From contig NHNW01000066.1 of assembly GCA_002786025.1 (NCBI GenBank), positions 62,001 to 126,000 of the forward strand: a DNA stretch of 64,000 bases, given 5' to 3'. The notes under the pieces are model-generated. The model made no database searches. It worked only from the letters and a program-made list of their open reading frames with translations, and was not told the DNA's origin. Positions 18,278 through 37,463 of this stretch are shown in pieces. How positions within the stretch are numbered: position 1 is the first letter of the stretch; every line of letters starts with the position of its first letter. Source of the stretch: Zasmidium citrigriseum (lineage: Eukaryota > Ascomycota > Dothideomycetes > Mycosphaerellales > Mycosphaerellaceae). Made by a program: the position numbers and the translations under genes.

Positions 18278-18856
18278 GATGTTGCATGATATTGTGAACC
18301 TGATGATTGGGCAAGACTGTGACAAATCGGTGTTCTGTCGTTCTGATGGGCTTCCATTCTGGACGAGAAAGTGGCATCTTTATGTAAAACATTTGAGGTC
18401 GATACAAGTCCACGGCTGAAGTGATGATCTCGGGCCTCTCTTGTGATACCGATTGAGACCGACATCGCAGAAGCAGCCTATTTGGGAAGTGCTGTTCGAG
18501 GGCATACCGAAAAGTTCAGCCTGTCGACGAGCTTTGCTTACAGCGTAGTAACTTTCAGAAGCGTTTTGGTACCTGAAAGTCAATCGCCCACGTCATGGGA
18601 AGCATTGGCTCAAGTGCCGGAGTCGGATCGTTCAGTAGACTCCTTCAGCCTCACGTTCCATGTGTCACAAAGTTTGCGCGCCAAAGTGGTATCCGATCGG
18701 CTTCACGCTCAGGAAAGCGACATCGCATGAATCCTGCCAGAACATTAGCATTCGGTAGTTGACAAGATCGGTAGTTGAAAGTTGCAACTCAACGAAGATG
18801 ACTTATTTGTACTTCCGCCGTTTCGCAATGCAATCGACCTGCATCAACCAATTCCA
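18278..18856. promoter_or_regulatory. Shared divergent promoter region
   Basis: These 579 bases lie between the divergent amidohydrolase and Ldi-like genes. No gene is supported inside. A near-duplicate cggtagttga motif occurs twice around 18753-18778. It probably holds both promoters. Confidence 0.45.
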
Positions 18857-20589
18857 ATGTCTCCTCCAAACATGAAGCACTCACTGCCATCGACTCTTCC
18901 ATTCGACGTCTCGAAACATCCCAAGCTCGACGAGAAGCAAGCAGGCCACCTGCGACATTTCCACAACATCGCATCTGCTCCAGATGGAGAATGGCCGCAC
19001 ATGGGCACGTCCGATCCAGAACAGGCTTTCGTCGATGCCTATCGATATCAGCTCGCAACGATGGCCTACGCATCTACTCTGGCGCACTACCATCGCCTGC
19101 CAGCGATGCGCTCGTTGTTCAAATCTCTGATTCGAAAGTTGATCCACAAGATGCTGTTACCTCATGTCTGGAATTATTGGTACCTGACGTCTCAGTCGGG
19201 GATTCGCCTTGATCCAGATATCAAGGAGCTAAGGAAGCCGTGGGCAGATCCAATCGTGAAGGAAAACATCATGTATAGCGGTCATCTACTACTGATGATC
19301 AGCTTGTACGCGATGCTCTTCGACGATGATGAGTTCGAGAAGGATGATAGCCTTGTCTTTGAGTGGAAGCCGATGTTTTGGGGGATGGGGTCGGAGAAGT
19401 TCACGTATTCTGCGAAGACTTTGCAAGATGCGATCTTGAAAGAGATGGAGCGAGAGCATTGGGTTGGAGTGTGCTGCGAGCCGAATATGGTGTTTGTCGT
19501 TTGCAACCAGTTTCCCGTGAGCAACAAATCCGTGCGTCGCATAATGTGGACGAAGACTGACTTGTCTTAGATCATTGCCATGAGATATAACGATGTTCGT
19601 CACGGCACGGACGTTGCGCGAAGGGTCCTGGAGCAATATTGGCCAGCAATCCAGAAGAAGAACATGATCGCAGACGATGGTCTCTTCGTGGACGCTCTCC
19701 ATGTCAGGCAGTCGGCTCCTCGGAGGGCCAAGAGTGTTGGCTTCACGGCCTGGTAAGTGGAATACCATACTCTTGGAGCATATTGCTGATATCGGGAAGG
19801 GCATGTGCTTTCATGAATTCATGGAATTCCGGATGGGTCCAGGAGAACTTCGCCCGGCAGGCTGAGGGCTACATCACGAATGTGGACGGCAAGACCAGAG
19901 TCCAAGCGCCGCTTGTTGCACAGGAGATCAGACGGCGAGTCAACGAGGACGGTGCGAATGCCAACGATGCCGAGACTGTGCGGCAAAGTAAGAAGGCCGT
20001 GGCAAATGCGGACAGCCATGAGTCCATGTTCCAGCAGCCTCTGTTCGGCTATGCTGCCCAGTGGCTTTCTGAGCTTGGTCGGACTCAAGAGCTTCAATCG
20101 CTCCTCGAAAGCATTGATGAAAAGCATGCACTAGTCTGGGAGGACGGTGGTTGCCGATATGCCAGGAATGACCGTATCATCAACGATGAGGGCGAGTGGG
20201 TGCGAATGGACCCATTCTCTGGTAATGCCGCCATCGCATACGCTCGATTGAGTGTTGCCGATGGCCAAAAGAAGATGTGGGAGCAGCCATGGACCAGAGA
20301 GCATGTCCAGCAAAGTCCGTATGTTGATGGTCTGGAGTACTGCGATGGGATCAACTGTCTTCGAGGCCAGTGGGATGAGGATCGGAACGCCATGTTTGTG
20401 ACGCTCAAGAGCTCGCAGAGCGGAGCGGTCAGATTCAGTGTCCGGAAACTACCCAAAGGTGTCTATGGCATCTATTGGGGTGGTTTTCTTGCTGAGGTAC
20501 GTGGATTGGAAGCTGGAGGAAGCGTCGACGTTGAACACACCTTTCTCGAGGGCGAAGAGATGGACCTAGTCGTTTGGAAGTCGACATAG
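18857..20589 (+). CDS. Linalool dehydratase/isomerase-like (Ldi domain) protein
   Basis: Three exons (18857-19516, 19571-19752, 19800-20589) encode about 543 residues. The pattern R-Y-Q-L-A-T-M-A-Y-A, then H-Y-H-R-L-P, M-Y-S-G-H-L, F-W-G-M-G and C-E-P-N-M-V-F-V-V-C-N-Q is, to my recollection, that of the fungal Ldi-domain family (linalool dehydratase/isomerase fold, an alpha/alpha barrel). The bacterial enzyme interconverts geraniol, linalool and myrcene. Fungal homologues are largely uncharacterised, so terpene chemistry should not be assumed. Both introns are supported by frame and by conserved W-A-C-A-F-M-N-S-W across the second junction. Upstream codons lack an ATG in frame before 18857. 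There is no signal peptide. Confidence 0.75.
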
Positions 20590-26190: not shown

Positions 26191-26592
26191 CTAACAAGGC
26201 GACGGCGTCTCAATACAAGCACAAGCCGTACTCGCAAAATTCTTTCCCAAAGCCTCCAGCGTCGAAAGCAGAGCCGCTGGCTTAGGTTGTGCCTTCTTGA
26301 CCAGAGTCGTTGGAGCAGGCTCAGGATCCGCCGTTCGCTCTGCAATTTTGACTTTCTTCTGTGCCTGTCTGCCGGTACATGCGACGGGGAAGTTCTTCGA
26401 GCACCAGGATAAGGCTGCGGTGTTGCTTGAGAGTGGTAGGATGGCTTCGTAGGGGAACTTTGTGCATACGCTGGCAGGGGTTGTTGGTGCTGGAGTTGTC
26501 GTAGTCGTTGACGTGGTTGTAGTGGTCGTTCCAGGGCCTTCTGTGGTGCCAGCGTACGCCATGGCGGCGAAGGCGAGGAGGATGAAGCGCAT
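26191..26592 (-). CDS. Small secreted Thr-rich, six-Cys protein
   Basis: A single exon encodes 133 residues. Residues 1-14 (M-R-F-I-L-L-A-F-A-A-M-A-Y-A) are a clear signal peptide. Then comes a mucin-like Thr/Pro tract (residues 15-40) likely to be O-glycosylated. Then comes a segment with six cysteines, an even number compatible with disulphides, ending at a C-terminal Cys. The part containing L-S-W-C-S-K resembles the Cys-containing N-terminal motif of many fungal secreted proteins. The role is unknown; a cell-surface or effector-like protein is possible. It lies between the glycosyltransferase block and the UstYa pair, on the opposite strand to the first UstYa gene. Confidence 0.6.
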   Translation of the reverse strand: MRFILLAFAAMAYAGTTEGPGTTTTTTSTTTTTPAPTTPASVCTKFPYEAILPLSSNTAALSWCSKNFPVACTGRQAQKKVKIAERTADPEPAPTTLVKKAQPKPAALLSTLEALGKNFASTACACIETPSPC

Positions 26593-27180
26593 CGTTGGCG
26601 AGTTTTGATGCTGTCTGTCGAGGAGATGTGGGCTGCTGGAAGCCGTTGGGTGCTTGGAAGACTTGCTAGTATTGGATGCGATTGACGACGGAATGTTGGA
26701 TGGGTGTCAGTGGACTACCTTTCTATTTGTACTGTTCCTTTCATTCTGCTTGCGGCGACTCCGCTGGCCTCGAGAACGCCAAAGGTCATGGCGTAGCGAC
26801 ATCCAGCCCGATCCATGCTGTTCTCGCCTTGGCCGTGTCTCGGGCATGGAAGTCAGAAGGCGCCTTCCGAGTGCAGCTTCGCCTGCAGCAGTTTCGAGCC
26901 AGTCATGATGGTCAAATGCCACGGAAACGTGGCCTCGCGTGGCAGGAAATGCCTATGCTTGGAGAAAGCTTGATGCAAAAGTCCGTCTGCGGTGAGACTT
27001 CAGCTGGCCAGCTTCACGCCACCAAAGTTCTGGCCGCTGCACTTTTGGTACGCTAGCCCAACAAGGCAGTAGCGACTGCCTTCAATGTTCTTCCCTTGCT
27101 CGCTATTATTGATGTGGCCTTCTTCCCACTGCCTCTATCGTTTGGCCTCTCAGCAACATCAAGCCCACTCAACTAGAAAC
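26593..27180. other. Divergent intergenic region
   Basis: These 588 bases separate the divergent secreted-protein and UstYa-1 genes. Only short unsupported frames are present. It is the probable shared promoter region. Confidence 0.4.
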
Positions 27181-28043
27181 ATGGGTGCAGAGAAGGAGAG
27201 CATATCTTTCCTCGACGAGCCCAAGGATCTGGAAGTCTCACACCCACTATGGGCGACCAAGGAAAGAAGATGGCGATTCTTCCCGAACCTCATAGCCGTG
27301 CTGAACATCATTCTCTTTCTCACATCCATCACGATCTACTGGGCATCTCGACACCCATCTGTTCCAGGACCATTTCAAACAGACATCCAGGACGCATGGT
27401 CAGCAGTGCAATACGAACAGCGAACCTTTACCGGCGCCCTCAAAGTCGACCCAACCACCAAGGACCTGTATCGCGAGAAGAACGCCGAGCACGAGTTCTT
27501 TGGAGAGCCATCGATCTTGATCGAGGATGCTTGGGATCGATTGCTGCACGGTAAGTCTACCGCTCTCGACAGAATCATCTCTTCTAAACCTGATGTTACA
27601 GATGAATTCGTCCCCATGACTGATGAAGAGGCCGCTCCATTCGAGCCTGAGCTGACAAGGCTGCCTTGGGAAGGGAAGTTCTTCTTCGAGTATGCCGATG
27701 AATTTTCCCACTTGTCAGCTTGACATCTGACCGATCCTCCAGACCCGACATGCTCCATTCGCTCCACTGCCTCAATGCGATCCGAGGCGAGCTGTCGACA
27801 TACATGTACAACTCCTCTGCGGTCGTCCGCACCTACTCGACCTCCGACCTGGCGCATCTCGAGCATTGTATGGATCGACTCCGCCAGTCGATTATGTGCT
27901 TTGGAGATTTGACACCATCGCCCTTGTACTCATGGCCTGGCTCCTCGATGGCGTTGGGTCGATCCGGTGCACATACTTGTCGCAAGTATGAGCCAATTCA
28001 GGACTGGATGGACAAGCGCAGGGCTGCGGCTCATGGCGAGTGA
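27181..28043 (+). CDS. UstYa-family (DUF3328) oxidative cyclase-like protein 1
   Basis: Three exons (27181-27550, 27602-27689, 27743-28043) encode about 252 residues. One membrane anchor lies near residues 34-53. Both family motifs are intact: H-S-L-H-C (158-162) and H-C-M-D-R-L-R-Q (194-201), the two His/Cys-containing blocks that define UstYa/UstYb-type proteins. In known systems these act with copper to oxidatively macrocyclise or modify short core peptides of secreted precursors (ustiloxin, phomopsin, asperipin, cyclochlorotine pathways). The second intron lies just before the first motif and restores E-P-D-M-L-H-S-L-H-C. It faces the second UstYa gene tail to tail, and a repeat precursor lies 2 kb away, so a role in maturing that peptide is plausible. 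Confidence 0.88.
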
Positions 28044-28280
28044 ACGGTCATCCCAGGCAATTGCGCCCAGATTGAGCTCGACTAGCTCATCGATGTGTTT
28101 CTCCGCCGATGTACAACATCTGTGTGGAGAGCTCACATGGATGCTGCGCCTTGCGTCGCGGGTACACCCTCCTCGATGATATGGAATCTGGTCCTGCTTG
28201 CCGTCGGCTAGCCTGGAGCCTCGACAAGTCCAAGGAACATGGCAAGGATTGCATGTTCTCCTTCCGCTGCCAGGGGCCCC

Positions 28281-29130
28281 TCAGTTCAGCAAGTTTCCAA
28301 CCGGCAGGCCATCTGTCCCATCATCGCACATCTTCCAAGGATCGTCCTGTCCTTCAGGCAACTCATCATCCCAATAGCAAGCAGTGTTGGCCGTGGCATA
28401 ATCCCTCAGGACGTCCCAATCCCGACACTGCCTAGTCTGGTTGAATCCACCCTTATGCCCATGGCCAGTCACAATCAAAAGATCATCACTCGCCATACAC
28501 ATCACGCTCTGCCTCAGCGCATCATAGCAGTGCATCGCATGTTCGAGGGGCTTCGTGGGCGTTCTGTTGTCTCGAATGAGGAGGTAGTCCTTTCGAAGGA
28601 CTTGGATGCAGTGGATGAGGTGGTACGCTTCGAGGGCGTAGACGACTTTGTCGGAGTGGTGGGGGTGGACGATGGTTTCGGGAAAGCCTTGTTTGGTTGC
28701 GTAGTCGATGTCGAGAGCAATTACGCCATGGCCGGAGTTGATGCCTTCCCAGGATTCGTTGGGGATCTCGAGATTATCTTCGTCCCAGAAGCGGTTGAGG
28801 AGTCCGGAGTCGAGGGCTTTGTTGCGAATGGTGCTGAGGCCGACTTTGTGAATACCGTTAGCATGTGCGATCCATGCGATGTGATCTTGACATACGCTTC
28901 GAGATCTTCGGAGGATGTTCAGCCAGTTCTGTCCGCCAGCGGATAAGAACTACGCTCTGTATAAGAATGATCAAGATCAAAAGAGTGTATGCCGCGCCAT
29001 GAAGGCAATTGGAGCTTGTCGCTCTTCGGGTCTGTCGCAGAAGTCCTTCGATTTCGTCCTGGTCGTCCTGTTCCCTGTTCACCATCGCTCCAGATTCCGT
29101 CCAATTGCGCTTCTCATCATCGGCGTACAT
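28281..29130 (-). CDS. UstYa-family (DUF3328) oxidative cyclase-like protein 2
   Basis: Two exons (28896-29130, 28281-28843) give about 265 residues. A cytosolic N terminus is followed by a membrane anchor (about 43-63) and a lumenal domain. The motifs are H-L-I-H-C (153-157) and H-C-Y-D-A-L-R-Q (183-190), both complete. The W-D-E-D-N-L-E-I-P-N-E-S-W-E-G-I-N-S-G-H-G segment is also characteristic of the family. The two UstYa proteins here differ strongly outside the motifs, like the UstYa/UstYb pairs of dikaritin clusters, so they may act sequentially or as a complex. Its start codon lies 907 bases from the precursor start, and the two are divergently transcribed. Confidence 0.88.
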
Positions 29131-30036
29131 GATGTCGAAAAGTTGAACCTCTCCTGTCTCGCCAAACCGTCAACGATCGTGTCGCATACTCCTCCAAGCT
29201 CCCCCTTCGTCCTTCAGGAAGACATCATTTCGCAAGCCCCTCTCCAACGAGGGACGAGTCACGGAGTTATAATAGAAGGATTGAAAGCCCTCCCCGGCCG
29301 AAGTGGTTCACCCATGTTTCGGAACTTGCCAACAAGGAGGCTGAAGTCAGGGTTAAGCTATAAGAGGCGTTGATCGACGGAAAGCTGGACGTTTTGGCGG
29401 TATGATGGCGATCTTCCTTTCCGGCTTCCGCTCTGGGGTACGTTTGTTTGCGGACTTTGGGGGCGGAATTGGAGGTTTTGTGGAGGATGATGATGGACTT
29501 GGGCGGAGGAAGTGGAACCCTCATTCATTCTGACTGACTTGAACAACGCAAGCATTCATGAGTCCAGAACAGAAATCATACCGGTAGTTCCTGATCGAGG
29601 ACTTGCTGCCATCTTCCTGACTCAATCCCCAAGCCTCCCATCTCAGCGAAAGCTTAACTCCCCTAATAAGCATCCACCAACTCGCCGCCACTCAGCCTCC
29701 TGGCAACGGTCGATCAATTTGGACCGGAACCGGCAAACACGTCGATGAAGTCAGATCGAAACATGTGGCATGCCACGCGCGTGTGGTAAACGCCGAGATG
29801 GGATATCAAGTTGCGAGCGCCCTGCTCCAATCTGACCCTGGAGTGTTGCTGTCTTGATATTACTCCCCTTTCGATTTGCAGAAGTCGTCTATACCGTGCG
29901 ATTTGAGGTGAGTGTTGACTGCAACTCTCGAAAAGAAGTATACTGACATGATTACCAGCACATCCACTCATTACAACCAACCAGTCCACTCATTCACGCA
30001 ACTCCATCTACTCAACCTCAACCCAAAACAACCGAA
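29131..30036. promoter_or_regulatory. Divergent region between UstYa-2 and the precursor gene
   Basis: These 906 bases lie between two divergent start codons. No supported gene is present. The last 70 bases before the precursor ATG are C/A-rich and G-poor, a common fungal 5' leader. It probably contains promoters for both genes, which would permit joint regulation. Confidence 0.45.
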
Positions 30037-30606
30037 ATGCGTTTCTCAACATCAACCCTCCTCCTAGCCCTCCTCGGCACAACCCTCGCCCTCCCCGTCG
30101 CAGACATGACGGAGACTGTCCCCGAGACCCCCGAACCACCAAAATACCACACCAACATGGCCGCCTGGAAACGCTCAGCCGAAGCCAAGAACTGCACAGG
30201 AGCGCAATGCTTCGAGCTCTGGAAGCGCAAGGAATTTCTCGCTCGTCCGTTGACGGATGGAGACGAGCCTTTGAAGCGCGAGGAGGATCCAAAGACGTTG
30301 ATTTTTTGGAAGAAGGACGCTGAGATGGAGGAGGGTGATCCGAAGACGTTGATTCTTTGGAAGAAGGACGCTGAGGCAGGACTTAGTGCTTGGAAGGAGA
30401 GAGATGCTGAGCCAGAGAGTTGTGTCGGTGCGCAGTGTTATAAGGCTTGGAGGCGTGAGAGCGAGCCTTGTACTGGTGCACAGTGCTTCAAGGCTTGGAA
30501 GGCCAGAGATGCCGAGCCAGAGCCTTGTGTTGGTGCTCAATGCTTAAAGAGTTGGAAACGATCGGCTGATGCCAATGCCGAAGCAAAGCCAGCCTATGCC
30601 TGGTAG
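30037..30606 (+). CDS. Secreted multi-repeat peptide precursor (candidate RiPP or pheromone-type)
   Basis: A single exon encodes 189 residues. Residues 1-19 are a signal peptide. The rest breaks into nine segments that each end in Trp. Eight end directly before a basic site (W44-KR, W62-KR, W91-KK, W108-KK, W119-KER, W138-RR, W154-KAR, W173-KR), and the ninth ends at the C terminus itself (Y-A-W189). Four segments share C-T/V-G-A-Q-C-x3-W (53-62, 129-138, 145-154, 164-173). Two are near-identical D-P-K-T-L-I-F/L-W units. Spacers such as D-A-E-P-E and S-A-E-A have the X-Ala/X-Pro pattern trimmed by Ste13-type dipeptidyl peptidases after Kex2 cleavage. The neighbouring UstYa pair favours a dikaritin-type RiPP. 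An alpha-factor-like pheromone is the main alternative. Confidence 0.85.
   Translation: MRFSTSTLLLALLGTTLALPVADMTETVPETPEPPKYHTNMAAWKRSAEAKNCTGAQCFELWKRKEFLARPLTDGDEPLKREEDPKTLIFWKKDAEMEEGDPKTLILWKKDAEAGLSAWKERDAEPESCVGAQCYKAWRRESEPCTGAQCFKAWKARDAEPEPCVGAQCLKSWKRSADANAEAKPAYAW
30193..30222 (+). repeat. Cys-unit 1 of the precursor
   Basis: Encodes C-T-G-A-Q-C-F-E-L-W (residues 53-62), followed by a Lys-Arg site. It is the most diverged of the four Cys-containing units and is separated from the others by about 200 bases. Confidence 0.8.
30286..30324 (+). repeat. Direct repeat unit 1, D-P-K-T-L-I-F-W type
   Basis: These 39 bases encode D-P-K-T-L-I-F-W-K-K-D-A-E. The second copy starts 51 bases downstream and differs at only two positions, indicating a recent in-frame duplication. 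Confidence 0.85.
30337..30375 (+). repeat. Direct repeat unit 2, D-P-K-T-L-I-L-W type
   Basis: Second copy of the 39-base unit. One of its two substitutions changes Phe to Leu before the terminal Trp, and the Lys-Lys site is unchanged. Confidence 0.85.
30421..30450 (+). repeat. Cys-unit 2 of the precursor
   Basis: Encodes C-V-G-A-Q-C-Y-K-A-W (129-138), preceded by D-A-E-P-E-S and followed by Arg-Arg. It is the only Cys unit with Tyr, the residue linked in most known dikaritins. Confidence 0.85.
30469..30498 (+). repeat. Cys-unit 3 of the precursor
   Basis: Encodes C-T-G-A-Q-C-F-K-A-W (145-154), preceded by E-S-E-P and followed by Lys-Ala-Arg. Confidence 0.85.
30526..30555 (+). repeat. Cys-unit 4 of the precursor
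   Basis: Encodes C-V-G-A-Q-C-L-K-S-W (164-173), preceded by D-A-E-P-E-P and followed by Lys-Arg. Confidence 0.85.
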
Positions 30607-30800
30607 TTGCAAGGCTGTAGTCCCGACGACAAGGATGGCCTAGGCATGAACAGAGTCTATGATTTGTTAGCTGATGTCTTACAGAGTATTACAGTCCATT
30701 GCGTCACAGAATAGCTAGGCAAAGGCGCTGGTCGTTGAAATCTATACATTAGCGTACATGCTGTCGTGCCTCAAGAGTGGAGTTGTGGTACAAATTTACC

Positions 30801-32213
30801 TCACACCCTCGCCATCAACCTCCTATCCCTCGCCAACCTCGCGACTGTTAGTAGCAACCCACCGACAACCAACATCGCAGCAGCGAAACAGCTGAGTGCC
30901 ACATATCCATTTTCAACCAGCTGACCCGCAATGGGCGTGCCGAACAAGCCCGTCAAGCTCACACTCGCCATGACAATCCCCACGCCCGCTCCATGCGTCT
31001 CGTCAGTCGTCAAGCTCGTTGCACAAACCAACTGCAAGCTTAATATCGCCCCACTGATGAATCCATAGGCAATAGACCAGACAATCAGGCCTGCCAGGTT
31101 GGTAGCAGCCGTCCAGCAGAAGACGACAATAGCGCTGCCGAAAGACGAGACGACGAGGACGTTGAAGGGCCCAAGGCGGTCAGCGACGAGACCGGGGAGG
31201 ATGCGCCCGAAGAGCGAGGCGCCATTCAGAGCCGAGAGAAGGTAGAATGCCGTGGATTCCGATATGCCCTGCGAGACGGCGTATGTCGAGATGTAGAAAA
31301 GTGGCGAGAAGAAGCCGAAAAAGGAGAAGGCCAGCCCAAGACAGAGGAATATGAAAGCTGGATGTTTCAGACCAGAGAGGTCCTTCTTCGTTTTCGTGTT
31401 GGTCTTGCCCTCTTGTTCATCTTTCTTGTGCTTCGGCTCGACTGGCTTGCGGACGAAAACGATCACCACAGCCAGCAAGGGAAGCATGATGAAACCCACG
31501 ATCCTCAACGACCAGCCGAAATCAATGTCGTCTTTGTTGAGCAGCTGGTCGAGAGCAATGGGCCAAATGACACCACCGAGTGATGATCCCGCGATCGTGC
31601 AGCCTTGTGCGAGTGCTCGGTTCTTCTTGAAATGCAGAGGTATGACCGTTGCGGCTGGGATTGTAACGAACGACATACCGATCCCCAGAAGAACGCCCTG
31701 GCTAAGGAAGAACTGGTAGTACTTCCGGGACAGGGATATCATGAAGACGGCAATGAGCTCGCATACGGCGCCGAAGGCGATAGGGACTGTAGGCCCATAT
31801 CGATCTGCGAGAAAGCCTGCGGGTGCTGCGCAGGCGAAGAGGATAAAGCTGGCGAAGGATCCGATCCAGGAGATCTGGAAGTTCGATTCGTCTGGCAGGT
31901 AATGTGCTGTGTAGTATTGCTACAAGAAAAGTCAGTGTAAGCCTGTAGGAAAAAATGGTATGGTAGTCGAACCTGGAAAACACCGTAAGCGTTCATGAAG
32001 CCGACTGTGACGAACAGGGCCAGACAGCCCGCGAGCATTGTCGCTATCGATCGAACACTATCCAGTCAGAGATGCATGAGTGCAGTCAGCGCTCTGCACT
32101 CACTTGAACTCAGATGGAGCAGATTCGTCCCGGTCAATTTGTTGTTCATTCGTCGCATTGTCGACATGCTTCTCGTCGATGATCTCTTCCACTGCCTCTG
32201 GTCTTGGGTCCAT
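30801..32213 (-). CDS. MFS monocarboxylate-type transporter
   Basis: Three exons (32104-32213, 31973-32057, 30801-31919) give about 437 residues. The acidic N terminus precedes twelve predicted helices. M-L-A-G-C-L-A-L-F-V-T-V-G-F-M-N-A-Y-G-V-F-Q-Q-Y-Y opens helix 1, the typical start of fungal MCT-like (MCH/SLC16-type) carriers, and A-D-R-Y-G-P-T follows helix 2. The second intron has a weak GTTCGA donor but the protein continuity is exact. Relatives in fungal biosynthetic clusters are often export or uptake carriers of carboxylated metabolites; the substrate here is unknown. It converges with the precursor gene (194 bases between stop codons) and its start is 220 bases from the regulator gene's stop. 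Confidence 0.87.
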
Positions 32214-32433
32214 GGCTGCAGTATCGTTGGCTCAACAATTGTTTCTTTTGCTGCAGACCAGATGCAGCATTAATGTTCCACTATAAAGAAGTCTTCTCTG
32301 CTGTACCGACCGCATGCTCCATGGACGTGGCTTGCAAGCTCGGATTGTCCGTGGCGAAGGATTCGCAAGCCATGGAAGCTCCACCAGAACAGCTCCCTCC
32401 TTCCAATCACAATGTCATGCCCGCGCCCCTTGC

Positions 32434-34745
32434 TCAAAGGATATGCATGTCGAGATCCTGCAAGAGTGCCTCCCAGTCTTGGGTATCCAGCATCTGGCCC
32501 TGGTCGATGAAGTCCTGCCACATACCGCCGTCGAATTCCAATCCACGATCTGTAGGGTATGGATTCGCCGCTACGGACGGAGCAGTGGTTGTATATGTGG
32601 AGGTTCCATTAGATTGCTGTGGGTACGTTTGGCCGTGGGAGAAGTAGCCGGCTCCATTCGATAGCACGGACTGTCCGGCATCAGGTGCTCTCGCCGCGTT
32701 CGCGTTCGGTAATTTGATATGATGCTTCCTCAGGACCGCCAAAAGAGAGTCCGAGAACTGGGCACCCATCTCAGAGGCATCCTTCGTTTGCTCTATTATG
32801 TTGAGGGCTTCGCGCACTTCTGCAAGCCGCTGTTGGTCGTTGTCGCCCTTGTTCACGCAGATGTCCATGACTAGCACAACGGTTGCATAGAAGATGTGGA
32901 GCATGATACCTATCGAATTAGCATTCCCTCACAGATCATCTTGCTGTGAACTTGTACCTACCTCCAAGTTTCAAATGAGATCTTAGGAAGACATGCTCTT
33001 CGTCCAGGACGGATTGGCGGATCTTGAAAACATTCCGCGCAGACTCGATGCCAACATTCCGTGAGAAGTTGAAGCGGGGGTTGAACTTCGCTCGGATAAG
33101 GAATGGTAGATGCAACTTGCACCGCATGGTGTTGATCATTTGATTGGCCATCACACGCTGGTTGTCCATCTGTGTGGTGAAGGCATCTCCGTATTCCATC
33201 CGAAGCTGAGTCCCAGAAACATCGAAGCGGAGGAAGCGAGGCATGTTGCGAAGGATGTTGTCGAACTTGGAGTCCATACTTGTGACCAAGTCGTAGTTGA
33301 CCTGATCCAGATCGCTGTAGCACCAAACAGTGTCCGAGATCTCTCTACAAACGCCCGCGAGCTTGATTCGGTGGAGATAGTAGCTCATCACAGTAGGTTC
33401 CAAGGGACTGCGTGTGAACTCTGGTCCTTGAGTATTGAGGTCGTCTCGGGTGAGATTGCGTGGCTGACTTGTAGCGATCTGATGGGGATGAATGGAGTAC
33501 ATCCCTTCTTGGGGTCCTCGTATGTACGATAGCAGCCTGACAGAATGTAAATGTAAAGCAAGGTCAGATTAGGGGTCATACATACCAGTCAGTGCAGGAT
33601 AGATGCCACCACACCTTTCTCCCAACTTCCTTCTCGATAACGCCAGCCTGGGTCAGGTCCGATGTTCGTGTAGCTTTCGCATCAAGCTTGTGCAGGCCCT
33701 GGTCTCGAGCCATAGCAAGGCCAGTGGCATGCATCATTCGCACTCTGAATGTAAAGCCCTCGACGTGGTAGAAAAGAAACGTCATCATAACGCAGGCTTG
33801 GACGGCTTCGAGCGAAGTCTCCTTGGTAGACACTCGCACCTGCTCAATCGCATAAAGGGCCTGTCTTGCCCACTCGGTGGAAGCTTTGTTAGCTGATGTC
33901 TGGTCTCCAAAAATGTCTGGGCCTCGATGGAATCCAATGACCCAGTAGAAACCGACGCTGGCGCATATGCTTAAGATGAGTGCCAGCGCACCTGGTTCAG
34001 TCTTGTCCATTGCTTGAATCTGCGAGTAGACTCGGTCGAAAGTGTTGCGTGTATGTTCGACATGCATGACATGCTGCATCGCATCCAGATGGTCTGCGTA
34101 TACATTCAGAAAACGGATAGCCACATCGTAGGGCGGCACCTCGATGGAATGAGTCCTTGGTGGACGATAGTCATTGGAGGCGAGCTGGTCGTCACTCTGG
34201 ATGTTCACAACTAATCGCTCGCTGAACTGGGGGAGCTGATAGATGTCAGTCGATTGAGGATCAGCGGCAGTTAGTTGAGGCTTGCCGTCAACTCTGAGCG
34301 AGTGCCGATGGCCTCCAGCCAATGGGAGTCCTCTTCCGCCTTGTCACCGTCTGTTCTCGGGCGCGGAGGCGTCGACGCGGCTGTAGACGTTGAGGGGTAG
34401 TTCAGAGGAGCGAGAGGTGGCAGGGTCTGCTGGCCGTATACGGTTTGTTCCAGCCTCTCCAGCCGAGCCTTGATGATTCGGTTCTCTGCTCGGAGGTCAT
34501 CGTCTTCGAGAACGGCATCGGTTGCCGGGTGTCGTTCTCCTTGATACTCGCAAGTTACGCGGCGACTGTTGCAATTGGAGCATGGTCTCTGGCGGTCGCA
34601 CTTGAGTTTCTTGACCTACAGTACAAGCATTAGCGCTTCTGTGGCCAAGCATCACATGGGGCAGGATGTTACTGACTCGGCACAGCTGGCAACTGACGGG
34701 ATCTTGACGTGGGCGGGCCCGGTCGGCTGTGCGGACAGGGGGCAT
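32434..34745 (-). CDS. Zn2Cys6 regulator with fungal-specific TF (middle homology) domain
   Basis: Clear exons are 34677-34745, from 34615 downwards, to 33586, 32962-33536 and 32434-32909. The zinc cluster reads C-Q-L-C-R in exon 1, then K-C, C-S-N-C and T-C at the start of exon 2 (CX2CX6CX5CX2CX6C), with the family-typical intron after the second Cys. The middle homology region includes V-W-W-H-L-S-C-T-D-W and G-P-Q-E-G-M-Y-S-I-H-P. Between about 34220 and 34350 the frame must shift. One solution is a 71-base intron (34222-34292) giving about 692 residues; another is a 56-base intron (34292-34347). A true frameshift is not excluded. As the regulator nearest to the precursor and between two transporters, it is a candidate pathway-specific activator. 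Confidence 0.8.
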
Positions 34746-35012
34746 GTTGGGTGGTTTGTCACCGGACGGAGCTGGTTCTTGTCATGACGGATTTGATGTT
34801 GATGCGGTTGATGAGACGCAGACGGAGCTGAAGTGGAGGTCTTCATCTCGCAAGAATAGCCGATGCTGAGTAAGCGGCTAAAGCTGCATGACTCCCGTCC
34901 CTCCTTGTCTCCGACGACATCCTCTCTTATTCATCTCTACCAAAATCTATGTTTCTTATTGTGCTGCATTACCACTTCGGTCTGCTTAACCCCAGTATCT
35001 CCTCCTCCATCA

Positions 35013-36756
35013 TCAGCCGCCTGCCGCTGCCCCAGTCAGATCGACCTTCTCATGCCTCATCAGCAACGCCGCAACTAGAAGAACGGCCCCCGCCGCCACG
35101 GCCGTGCCAAACACCCGGGCAATGGTGTATGCTATCGTGGAAATCACCTGCACCGTAGCAGCAGCAGGCGCCGAGCCGAGTACGTCCGATCCCACGCCGC
35201 CCAGCGCGGCCTCGTAGAAGGAGTCCGGCAGGCCGTACTGCCCAACAGCATCTCGCAGAAATTCGACCCCGAGATTCTGGTACAGACAGCTAGCGATGGC
35301 CAGTGCCAGCGCCGTCGTTCCGATCTGTGCCGTGTTGATGAAGCCGATGGCGTTGCTGCGGTCCTCCAGCGCCACTCGCACCGATGCCACCGCATAGGCG
35401 TTTTGGAATGTCAGTCCCGATCCCACCGCCACGAGCGCCTCGTATGCGTACACTCGCCCCGAACTGGTATCCGCGCGGATGGTGAACATCAGAGCTGACC
35501 CAACCGTCATGAACACCCCTCCAATGATATAGTAGAGCGAGTATCGTCCTGACAGTGGCAGAGTTCCCCCGGCCAGGAGCACGCAAAAGATAAAGACCAC
35601 GATGTAGGGCAGCAATCTGACTGCTGCATCCAGAGCCGAGTCTCCTCGAGTGAAGGCGAAAAGGAGGGGTATGTAGTAGATCGCAACCGCGTTTGCCGTG
35701 GCTGAAGCCGCAGTTGCAATGTAAAGCAATACTAAAGTCCTCGACTTCAGGAAGTGGATCGGGAAAATACGCTGCTCCGGGGTAGTCAGTACCGCAAAGT
35801 ACTGCTGCAAGACCAGCAGCACCAGAGCGACTCCAAAGACGGTCCAGAGGGCGATGCTCGTACCGGAGTCCCAGGCAAAGGTAGCGCCGGCGAAAGCGAT
35901 GGTTGTAATTAAGACCACTGGAACGACGGCGATCAGCAAGGCTCCTGCCCAGTCGACTGCTGACATCTTTTGCTTGAAGGACAAGTCCGGACGAGGGTCG
36001 AAAGATGGGGTGACAAAGATGTACACCGGAGCGACCAGTCCAGCAAGCGGAAGATTGATGTAGAATGCCTGCCTCTGTTTAGTACCGACGACGTCGACCA
36101 GCAGTAACCACGTACCCATCTCCAAGTCGCACTGCTAACGGAGAAAGCACCTCCGACGACCGGGCCGAGGATTGCTCCAACACCCCAGCAGACTCCAGTC
36201 AGGGCATTGTACAGTACCAATTTGTCCGGCGATCCAAGAGCAGAGATGTATGTGAGCGCTCCTAAGTACATCCCGCATCCGCCTAGGCCAGCTATTACTC
36301 GACCAACAATGAGAGCATTCATATTCGGTGCAGCTCCGCAGAGCGCGCTCCCAAGCTCAAACATCACAACCGATGTGTTGGTCAGAGTCTTGATATTGAA
36401 CAGGCCATATAGCCGCCCGACTAGCAAGATACATGACACCGAGGCCATGGGGAAGCCCAGCCCTATCCATGCGAGGTTCTCGATGTCTCCGAATGTTTCG
36501 TACGCGGCAGTCTGGACGTCTGCGGCGATGGTGGTGTCCAAGCCTGCACGAAGTCTTATGATGCTGCCCTCGCGGCCAGATATGGAGCTGACATACCGTA
36601 TAGTATAGCGCCAAGGTATAACGAGATCAAGGTCAACACCCACTGCCATGCTGGATAATGTGGCTTCTCGTCCGTCTCGACATCGTCGTCGCTCACTCTA
36701 CCGGAACGGTTCTCGTCACTGAAAGACGGCCTGTCGAGCTTTTCAACTCCATCCAT
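35013..36756 (-). CDS. MFS drug:H+ antiporter-type efflux pump (14-TM DHA2-like)
   Basis: Three exons (36597-36756, 36116-36543, 35013-36068) encode about 547 residues. An acidic N-terminal tail is followed by L-D-T-T-I-A-A-D-V-Q, the characteristic DHA2 motif D1-like segment of fungal toxin-efflux pumps. V-G-R-V-I-A-G-L-G-G-C-G, G-A-I-L-G-P-V-V-G-G-A and W-R-W-A-F-Y-I-N-L-P then follow in family order. The last intron's acceptor was chosen to restore W-R-W-A-F-Y-I-N-L-P; an earlier AG four bases from the branch A is less likely. Such pumps export secondary metabolites or xenobiotics at the plasma membrane. It is the first of three collinear minus-strand genes (pump, regulator, carrier) flanking the precursor. 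Confidence 0.9.
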
Positions 36757-37463
36757 TGCGAGAGAAAAGGGGATTCAAGGTATTATTCGACGATTGATGA
36801 CCACGAATAAAGCCGCCGACAGCTGCTTTAATATGGCTATCGTCTCGGTCCATGCTTCAGACGACTTGCAAACTTCACAGGCATTTTTCTCCACGACGGA
36901 GCGACTCTTCGCCGTGCATGCCCAGAATGGCCACGAGACTGGAGACGAACAGACTTTGCGACCCAGACAGCACTGTCGATGTTACGGCCGTTCTGAACGG
37001 TTCGAGTTTGTGAGTTTCGCTTGCCTGAGGGTTTTCGGGCGGATTACTGATACAGCTCGTTCTCGTGTTTTTTCGCTTGCCACGCACGTGAGTGTATTTG
37101 CAGGGCACGAGATCGAGTCAAAACTTAGAACCCGACTCTGTTGTCCTGTTTGAATCCTGTATGGATGGCGTACAGCATTTCCTTGGACCTCCGCAGGCAT
37201 GCCGTTGAACTTCTGGATCGGCCTGAAACTTTTCGGCTTGAAGCCGCGACGTTTTATGCTCGTTCAACTATGGGGCAGTTTCTCGGTGCAAGATGGAGTA
37301 GAGTAAGGTTGGAAAAGCGAAGAAGTTACGTGGTCAAGGCCTGAAGATCACATTTGACAGAGCCTCAGCGTCTCCCATGAAATTGTCTTGCAACACAAGA
37401 CATCGTCTTCATGCGGAAAGCTGCCGATCATCTGGACCAGATCCCTTCCACACGTCTCGATAG
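36757..37463. other. Intergenic region upstream of the efflux pump
   Basis: These 700 bases contain no supported gene. In particular, none of the three plus-strand frames carries the missing N-terminal half of the arylsulfotransferase that begins at 37464. Confidence 0.45.

Follow-up and report, generated by a model that had tools for sequence, protein, structure and literature searches.

The question raised by the locus described here is whether a fungal repeat precursor without a conserved Tyr can be the substrate of UstYa-family oxidases. The locus occupies positions 27,181 to 36,756 of a 64,000-nucleotide stretch of Zasmidium citrigriseum contig NHNW01000066.1 (the whole stretch is called the window below), whose gene families and introns indicate a fungal source. 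A first-pass annotation had placed six genes here, namely two intact UstYa-family genes, a secreted repeat precursor close to them and, on the minus strand, an MCT-like carrier, a Zn2Cys6 regulator and a DHA2-type efflux pump, and had joined all six into one pathway. The six genes are found where it had put them. Three of them, the precursor and both UstYa genes, probably make up a dikaritin-type unit for a ribosomally synthesized and post-translationally modified peptide (RiPP). This reading is well supported because of the architecture of the locus and because a similar pairing is found at other UstYa loci of the same genome. The known cross-links of UstYa proteins mostly centre on Tyr, and in this precursor the constant residues are Cys and the Trp before the cleavage site. 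The precursor therefore offers a direct way of testing what other targets these proteins oxidize.

Dikaritins are described as products of repeat precursors cyclized by UstYa homologues (PMC9233826, PMC10512285, PMC12048977), and the defining trait of the UstYa family (DUF3328) as a pair of HxxHC motifs (PMC10512285, PMC12048977). One mark of a dikaritin locus is thus a UstYa-family protein with two such motifs. Both UstYa genes of the window have intact reading frames and encode two each: HSLHC at 158 and HLEHC at 191 in UstYa-1, HLIHC at 153 and HAMHC at 180 in UstYa-2. Each protein has a single N-terminal hydrophobic stretch (near residue 37 and near residue 45, respectively). The Pfam UstYa model matches the frame containing exon 3 of UstYa-1 with 81.1 bits and that containing exon 2 of UstYa-2 with 78.2 bits; exon 1 of UstYa-1 scores 24.5 bits, just under the cut-off of 25. 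Intron positions in both genes are predictions. The two genes are convergent with a gap of 237 bp and, since they are 26% identical across 93 amino acids, the pair is not a recent duplicate. With UstYa-2 as query, the best matches in the PDB were to CopM, at E values of 0.03 and 0.048 only. Scans of viral contigs with the precursor and UstYa-2 found no relatives, a result that is uninformative for fungi.

A second mark is a secreted repeat precursor with Kex2-type sites near a UstYa gene. The precursor starts 906 bp from the start of UstYa-2, the two starts being divergent, and its signal peptide was judged by hydropathy alone. It has no match in Pfam or NCBIfam. Cutting it at KR, KK, RR, KER and KAR gives ten segments, nine of which end in Trp (eight directly before a basic site and one at the C-terminus of the protein). 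The remaining segment, KEFLARPLTDGDEPL-KR, has Leu in this place. The core C-[TV]-G-A-Q-C-[FYL]-[EK]-[LAS]-W is present in four segments and DPKTLI[F/L]W in two, and a further three have AAW, SAW and YAW as their last residues; the DPKTLI[F/L]W type and the segment with Leu had gone unreported in the first-pass annotation. The spacers between units, DA-EP-EP and DA-EP, consist of Ste13-type XA/XP dipeptides. This arrangement is not expected from composition: C-x-G-A-Q-C occurs four times in the precursor and never in 20,000 shuffles of it, and eight of its nine Trp precede K or R, against a shuffle mean of 1.39 with eight never reached in 20,000.

Pairwise comparison of the four 10-codon cores gives 28 synonymous and 27 non-synonymous differences on 5.58 synonymous and 24.42 non-synonymous sites. 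Because the differences per site are mainly synonymous, the peptide is apparently under selection, as if it had been kept while the DNA drifted. At the six invariant core positions, which were picked for their invariance, all 18 pairwise differences are synonymous. Tandem Repeats Finder returned nothing at score 30 within 29900-30800 and the repeat is therefore visible mainly as protein. These data also bear on the idea that the cluster is decayed or silent and its product no longer made. The repeats do differ among themselves and odd segments occur in the middle of the precursor, but the three reading frames are intact and the differences among the core codons are, per site, mainly synonymous; we give this idea hardly any credence.

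The search of the genome (44.4 Mb in 148 contigs) identified no paralogue of the precursor, the best matches having E values of only 0.217 and 0.723. The pattern C-x-G-A-Q-C has 21 matches (4 for the control), including the four in the precursor; 16 of the other 17 were inspected, and no repeat array was visible around any of them. W-K-R-x-A-E has 26 matches (15 for the control) and reveals no clear family. Among the papers listed in literature searches, none describes such a core in its title or at the start of its abstract; figures and supplements fell outside this search and absence from print is unproven.

This genome has a habit of placing repeat precursors beside UstYa genes, and the window follows it. 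Other UstYa loci were compared using the best eight of 43 exon-level matches, each with 1.5-kb flanks. A repeat-precursor-like frame with at least two units lies within the flanks of five of the eight and of none of 75 control loci, which were drawn from other pattern searches (several being pheromone-like) and partly overlap one another. The hypergeometric p is approximately 2e-6, or 4e-5 when at least three units are counted. An initial detector restricted to dibasic sites gave, at three units or more, 3/8 against 0/75 (p 6e-4). When the window is divided into 21 three-kb tiles, only the tile bearing the precursor scores with the repeat detector. The frames at four of the five loci (L002 to L005 in Table 1) each have their own core. 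A wider survey places UstYa-family genes no more than 15 genes away from 22% of 7878 repeat precursors, at a mean of 3.09 genes (Umemura 2020, PMC7329392).

Sequence relationships link the window to particular loci of this set. The spacer K[A/E/D]RDAE[P/A], a pattern composed after the spacer had been seen in both genes, occurs eight times in the 44.4 Mb: five times in the YTIP-core precursor on contig C110 (one of these falls 23 bases past the examined sequence), twice in the window precursor and once at C72:620100 (unread). The reversed-pattern control has no match. Contig C119 carries a convergent UstYa pair arranged as in the window, and UstYa-1 shares 43% identity with the first member of that pair (252-column alignment over UstYa-1 residues 37-245, read through introns); this locus is a possible sister cluster. 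The closest match of UstYa-2 is at C120:247099 (57% across 79 amino acids).

The recurrence of the pairing is relevant to another explanation, in which the UstYa pair serves a different substrate of the neighbourhood and has no relation to the repeat protein, which stays linear. UstYa-family proteins are described as occurring and acting in non-RiPP pathways too (PMC12048977), and the Pfam scan of the window (50 frames chosen from a larger frame list, not all frames) identified other oxidoreductases, an O-methyltransferase and linalool dehydratase/isomerase-like frames elsewhere. The same 50 frames include no polyketide synthase and no set of non-ribosomal peptide synthetase domains, however, and both the recurrent pairing and the spacer shared with the YTIP precursor argue for a link between the UstYa genes and the repeat protein. 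We consider this explanation very improbable.

Several observations weigh against a dikaritin-type unit. Most named dikaritins, victorin with its Phe being an exception (PMC9233826), have a core Tyr that takes the cross-link; in the window precursor Tyr is present in one of the four Cys cores and is not conserved. No tyrosinase, S41 peptidase or P450 occurs among the 50 scanned frames. For three of the eight other UstYa loci (L006 to L008), the 1.5-kb flanks are devoid of repeat frames. UstYa-1 is the sole gene of the locus whose upstream region (26593-27180) lacks the CGG-N-CGG motif discussed below. Finally, the basic site of the precursor is followed by Ste13-type XA/XP dipeptides, a feature of alpha-pheromone precursors, and spacers with DA and EP dipeptides fit alpha-pheromones too (PMC6339444). 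With regard to Tyr, it is reported in 65.6% of repeats beside UstYa-family genes, and the same survey has a type, P-3, with W together with P (PMC7329392). A precursor without a conserved Tyr is in the minority, not unheard of.

The last of these points leads to the alternative that the precursor gives an unmodified secreted signal of the alpha-pheromone type, acting as a second mating peptide or in the manner of a hormone, and that the UstYa genes are mere neighbours. The short ring with its two Cys, Gly and Gln, the terminal Trp and the DA/EP spacers all resemble alpha-pheromones (PMC6339444). Two-Cys alpha-pheromones are described from Sordariomycetes, Leotiomycetes and non-Pleosporales Dothideomycetes (Le Marquer 2019, PMC6339444), and this genome encodes the pheromone receptor STE2. 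It also contains a separate alpha-pheromone-type precursor on contig C20, with eight CGVPGQAC units and EA/DA spacers. The repeat consists of eight copies of (FR/IK)G[YF]IFRCGVPGQACNKR, of the two-Cys type, and none of the 43 listed UstYa matches falls on that contig. Degenerate units (CGTPGALC, CGVPGATC and CEQPGSAC) are also present in this precursor. The ring of the window precursor has four residues between the Cys rather than six, and its C-x-G-A-Q-C spacing corresponds neither to C-x3-G-Q-x-C nor to the PYGxPxG of Pleosporales. Moreover, UstYa-family genes are reported near only 3/216 fungal-pheromone and 0/227 yeast alpha-factor precursors (PMC7329392).

Spacers do not distinguish the two types of gene. 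XA/XP dipeptides are not exclusive to pheromones, being found also in the YTIP-core precursor on C110, and a K-x-R site alone is not diagnostic because KLRDAA occurs in the C20 pheromone precursor, which places K-x-R spacers outside the UstYa-adjacent precursors as well. A mating pheromone was the case that the first-pass annotation had named as speaking against its proposal. That case is weakened because the genome has the separate gene on C20; a second pheromone encoded in the window is possible but less likely, and overall we judge an unmodified signal to be distinctly unlikely.

Other pheromone patterns were also searched for in the genome. C-x3-G-Q-x-C, the pattern that revealed the C20 gene, has 275 matches (124 for the reversed control), of which about the first 100 were listed and 30 examined, so that more such repeat genes are possible. 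PYGLPIG has a single match, on C1, inside a 70-amino-acid frame without repeats. W-C-x3-G-[QE]-x-C has 15 matches, 12 of which were read, none of them in a repeat protein. Finally, 20 of the 51 matches of W-C-x(2-4)-G-x2-C-W were scanned with the repeat detector and nothing was found; one match, on C60, was by eye a 29-amino-acid frame overlapped by a longer one.

Beyond the gene anatomy, the repeats, the conservation of the core codons and the pairing at other loci, which are directly established, the dikaritin-type reading suggests a series of steps. The N-terminal signal, as judged from hydropathy, would take the precursor into the secretory pathway, where both oxidases, if they behave as their family does, would act on the repeated cores in the lumen of the endoplasmic reticulum or Golgi. 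Kex2-type cleavage at KR, RR or KK, and perhaps at K-x-R, would free the units. Trimming by a carboxypeptidase and by Ste13-type removal of DA and EP would then leave peptides near C-[TV]-G-A-Q-C-[FYL]-[EK]-[LAS]-W, with uncertain exact N-termini. Since nine of the ten segments have Trp as their last residue, oxidation or cross-linking would most likely take place at the Trp that precedes the cleavage site, perhaps as at the C-terminal Phe of victorin and with a small ring formed by the two Cys; we regard this detail as plausible but more doubtful than probable. A still bolder suggestion, which we rate as rather unlikely, is a RiPP chemotype without conserved Tyr in which the substrate is a small two-Cys ring peptide, possibly derived from an alpha-pheromone-type precursor, and UstYa oxidases couple the Trp at the C-terminal end of its core. 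The Trp would possibly be coupled to Cys (a tryptathionine-like thioether) or, in the DPKTLI[F/L]W units, to another side chain. Whether a pheromone precursor gave rise to a RiPP precursor, as this suggestion implies, can be studied inside one organism, since the same genome provides a comparison set (the YTIP, DVYHAKDGGII, PPIYRPLVNVALPPSDE and other UstYa-adjacent precursors) with the alpha-pheromone-type gene as an outgroup.

Table 1. Features of the locus and of related loci. Positions are those of the window unless a contig (C) is given; positions within a compared locus (L) are in brackets.
Feature	Position	Strand	Remarks
UstYa-1	27181-28043	+	predicted exons 27181-27550, 27602-27689, 27743-28043; 252 amino acids
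UstYa-2	29130-28281	-	predicted exons 29130-28896, 28843-28281; 265 amino acids
Intergenic region UstYa-2/precursor	29131-30036		906 bp between divergent starts; contains CGG-N-CGG
Repeat precursor	30037-30606	+	189 amino acids, single exon, hydrophobic N-terminus, ten segments
Core unit CTGAQCFELW	30193-30222	+	precursor
Second unit type, DPKTLIFW and DPKTLILW	30286-30360	+	precursor; each precedes KK
Core unit CVGAQCYKAW	30421-30450	+	precursor
Core unit CTGAQCFKAW	30469-30498	+	precursor
Core unit CVGAQCLKSW	30526-30555	+	precursor
MCT-like MFS carrier	30801-32213	-	MFS_1; 5' exons by eye from sequence; pathway membership uncertain
Zn2Cys6 regulator	32434-34745	-	Zn_clus and weak Fungal_trans; exon structure tentative; pathway membership uncertain
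DHA2-like MFS efflux pump	35013-36756	-	MFS_1; exon structure tentative; pathway membership uncertain
L001 repeat precursor	C110:177636-178343 (L001 2951-3658)		SPDAYTIPK units; adjoins best UstYa match; cut by locus end
L002 repeat frame	C57:664338-664967 (L002 2533-3162)		core DDVYHAKDGGIIKK
L003 repeat frame	C110:38046-38438 (L003 178-570)	-	core PPIYRPLVNVALPPSDE
L004 repeat frame	C61:1446528-1446734 (L004 2-208)	-	FYVPPGADGAEAQKR, two copies only; cut by locus end
L005 repeat frame	C119:166652-167128 (L005 2-478)	-	core LLNTSSLPVKERQ; KER/KAR sites
Convergent UstYa pair	C119:168151-170871		arranged as in the window
Alpha-pheromone-type precursor	C20:17689-18858	-	eight CGVPGQAC units
Linalool dehydratase/isomerase-like frames	18779-20586	+	two frames match PF18566; ~6.6 kb upstream of UstYa-1
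Small secreted-looking protein	26191-26592	-	just upstream of UstYa-1; 133 amino acids, Thr-rich stretch, no NCBIfam match

The three minus-strand neighbours are of the types named by the first-pass annotation, each with a domain above the Pfam cut-off in one frame. For the carrier this is the frame 30804-31919, which passes the MFS_1 cut-off and whose nearest relatives, with scores below the NCBIfam cut-offs, are monocarboxylate transporters. The pump passes MFS_1 in frame 35936-36697 (nearest to DHA2 pumps, again with a score below the NCBIfam cut-off); its other frame, 35016-36134, has a sub-cut-off MFS_1 match only. In the regulator, the Zn_clus match exceeds its cut-off in frame 34274-34615 and that to Fungal_trans, in 33579-34343, stays below its own. 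These genes may or may not belong to the predicted pathway. The presence of MFS genes says little about membership because their mean distance from such precursors is reported as 7.74 genes, compared with 3.09 for UstYa/DUF3328 (Umemura 2020, PMC7329392).

Shared regulation was examined in five upstream regions. That between UstYa-2 and the precursor is a possible bidirectional promoter. The number of 8-10-mers common to the five regions does not exceed that in random stretches. CGG-N-CGG, a Zn2Cys6-like spacing, occurs in four of them: 29131-30036 (UstYa-2/precursor), 32214-32433 (carrier), 34746-35012 (regulator) and 36757-37463 (pump). It reaches 4/5 in 2/500 random sets and is only a weak hint of shared regulation because some motif among the 39 classes does so in 41/500. 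The part of the six-gene pathway that is well supported is the RiPP unit of the precursor and the two UstYa genes; its extension to all six finds no excess of shared 8-10-mers and this weak hint from CGG-N-CGG.

Several known systems bear comparison with the locus. Like those of the Ppg1/Ccg-4 type of alpha-pheromone, the window precursor has repeats, two Cys, Gly and Gln, and Ste13-like spacers. It differs in ring size and in having UstYa neighbours, and the fungus has a pheromone-type gene elsewhere. A pheromone-like repeat precursor near a UstYa-family gene is also reported from Rutstroemia, where a DUF3328 gene lies two genes away from a Ccg-4 homologue (PMC7329392); the Rutstroemia precursor is, for its part, homologous to a known pheromone. 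The asperipin-2a cluster is similar in being a small unit of precursor, UstYa enzyme and transporter (PMC12048977), but it has one UstYa gene instead of two and the window core is not Tyr-based. Victorin, with its cyclized C-terminal Phe (PMC9233826), may offer a parallel for the C-terminal aromatic residue of the core. Cross-links are described as Tyr-Ile in ustiloxin and phomopsin and as involving the C-terminal Phe in victorin (PMC9233826, PMC10512285, PMC12048977), and Y-x-I-x, to which the YTIP core on C110 conforms, is the core type of ustiloxin/phomopsin-like precursors (PMC7329392). As the first-pass annotation had noted, C-x-G-A-Q-C-x3-W is unlike the known dikaritin cores: unlike ustiloxin and phomopsin, the window lacks the Y-x-I-x core and a conserved Tyr, with no tyrosinase in the scanned frames. 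It resembles them in having a signal-bearing repeat precursor with Kex2-type sites adjoining at least two UstYa-family genes, and a further link is provided by the K-x-R-D-A-E spacer that it shares with the YTIP-core precursor of its own genome.

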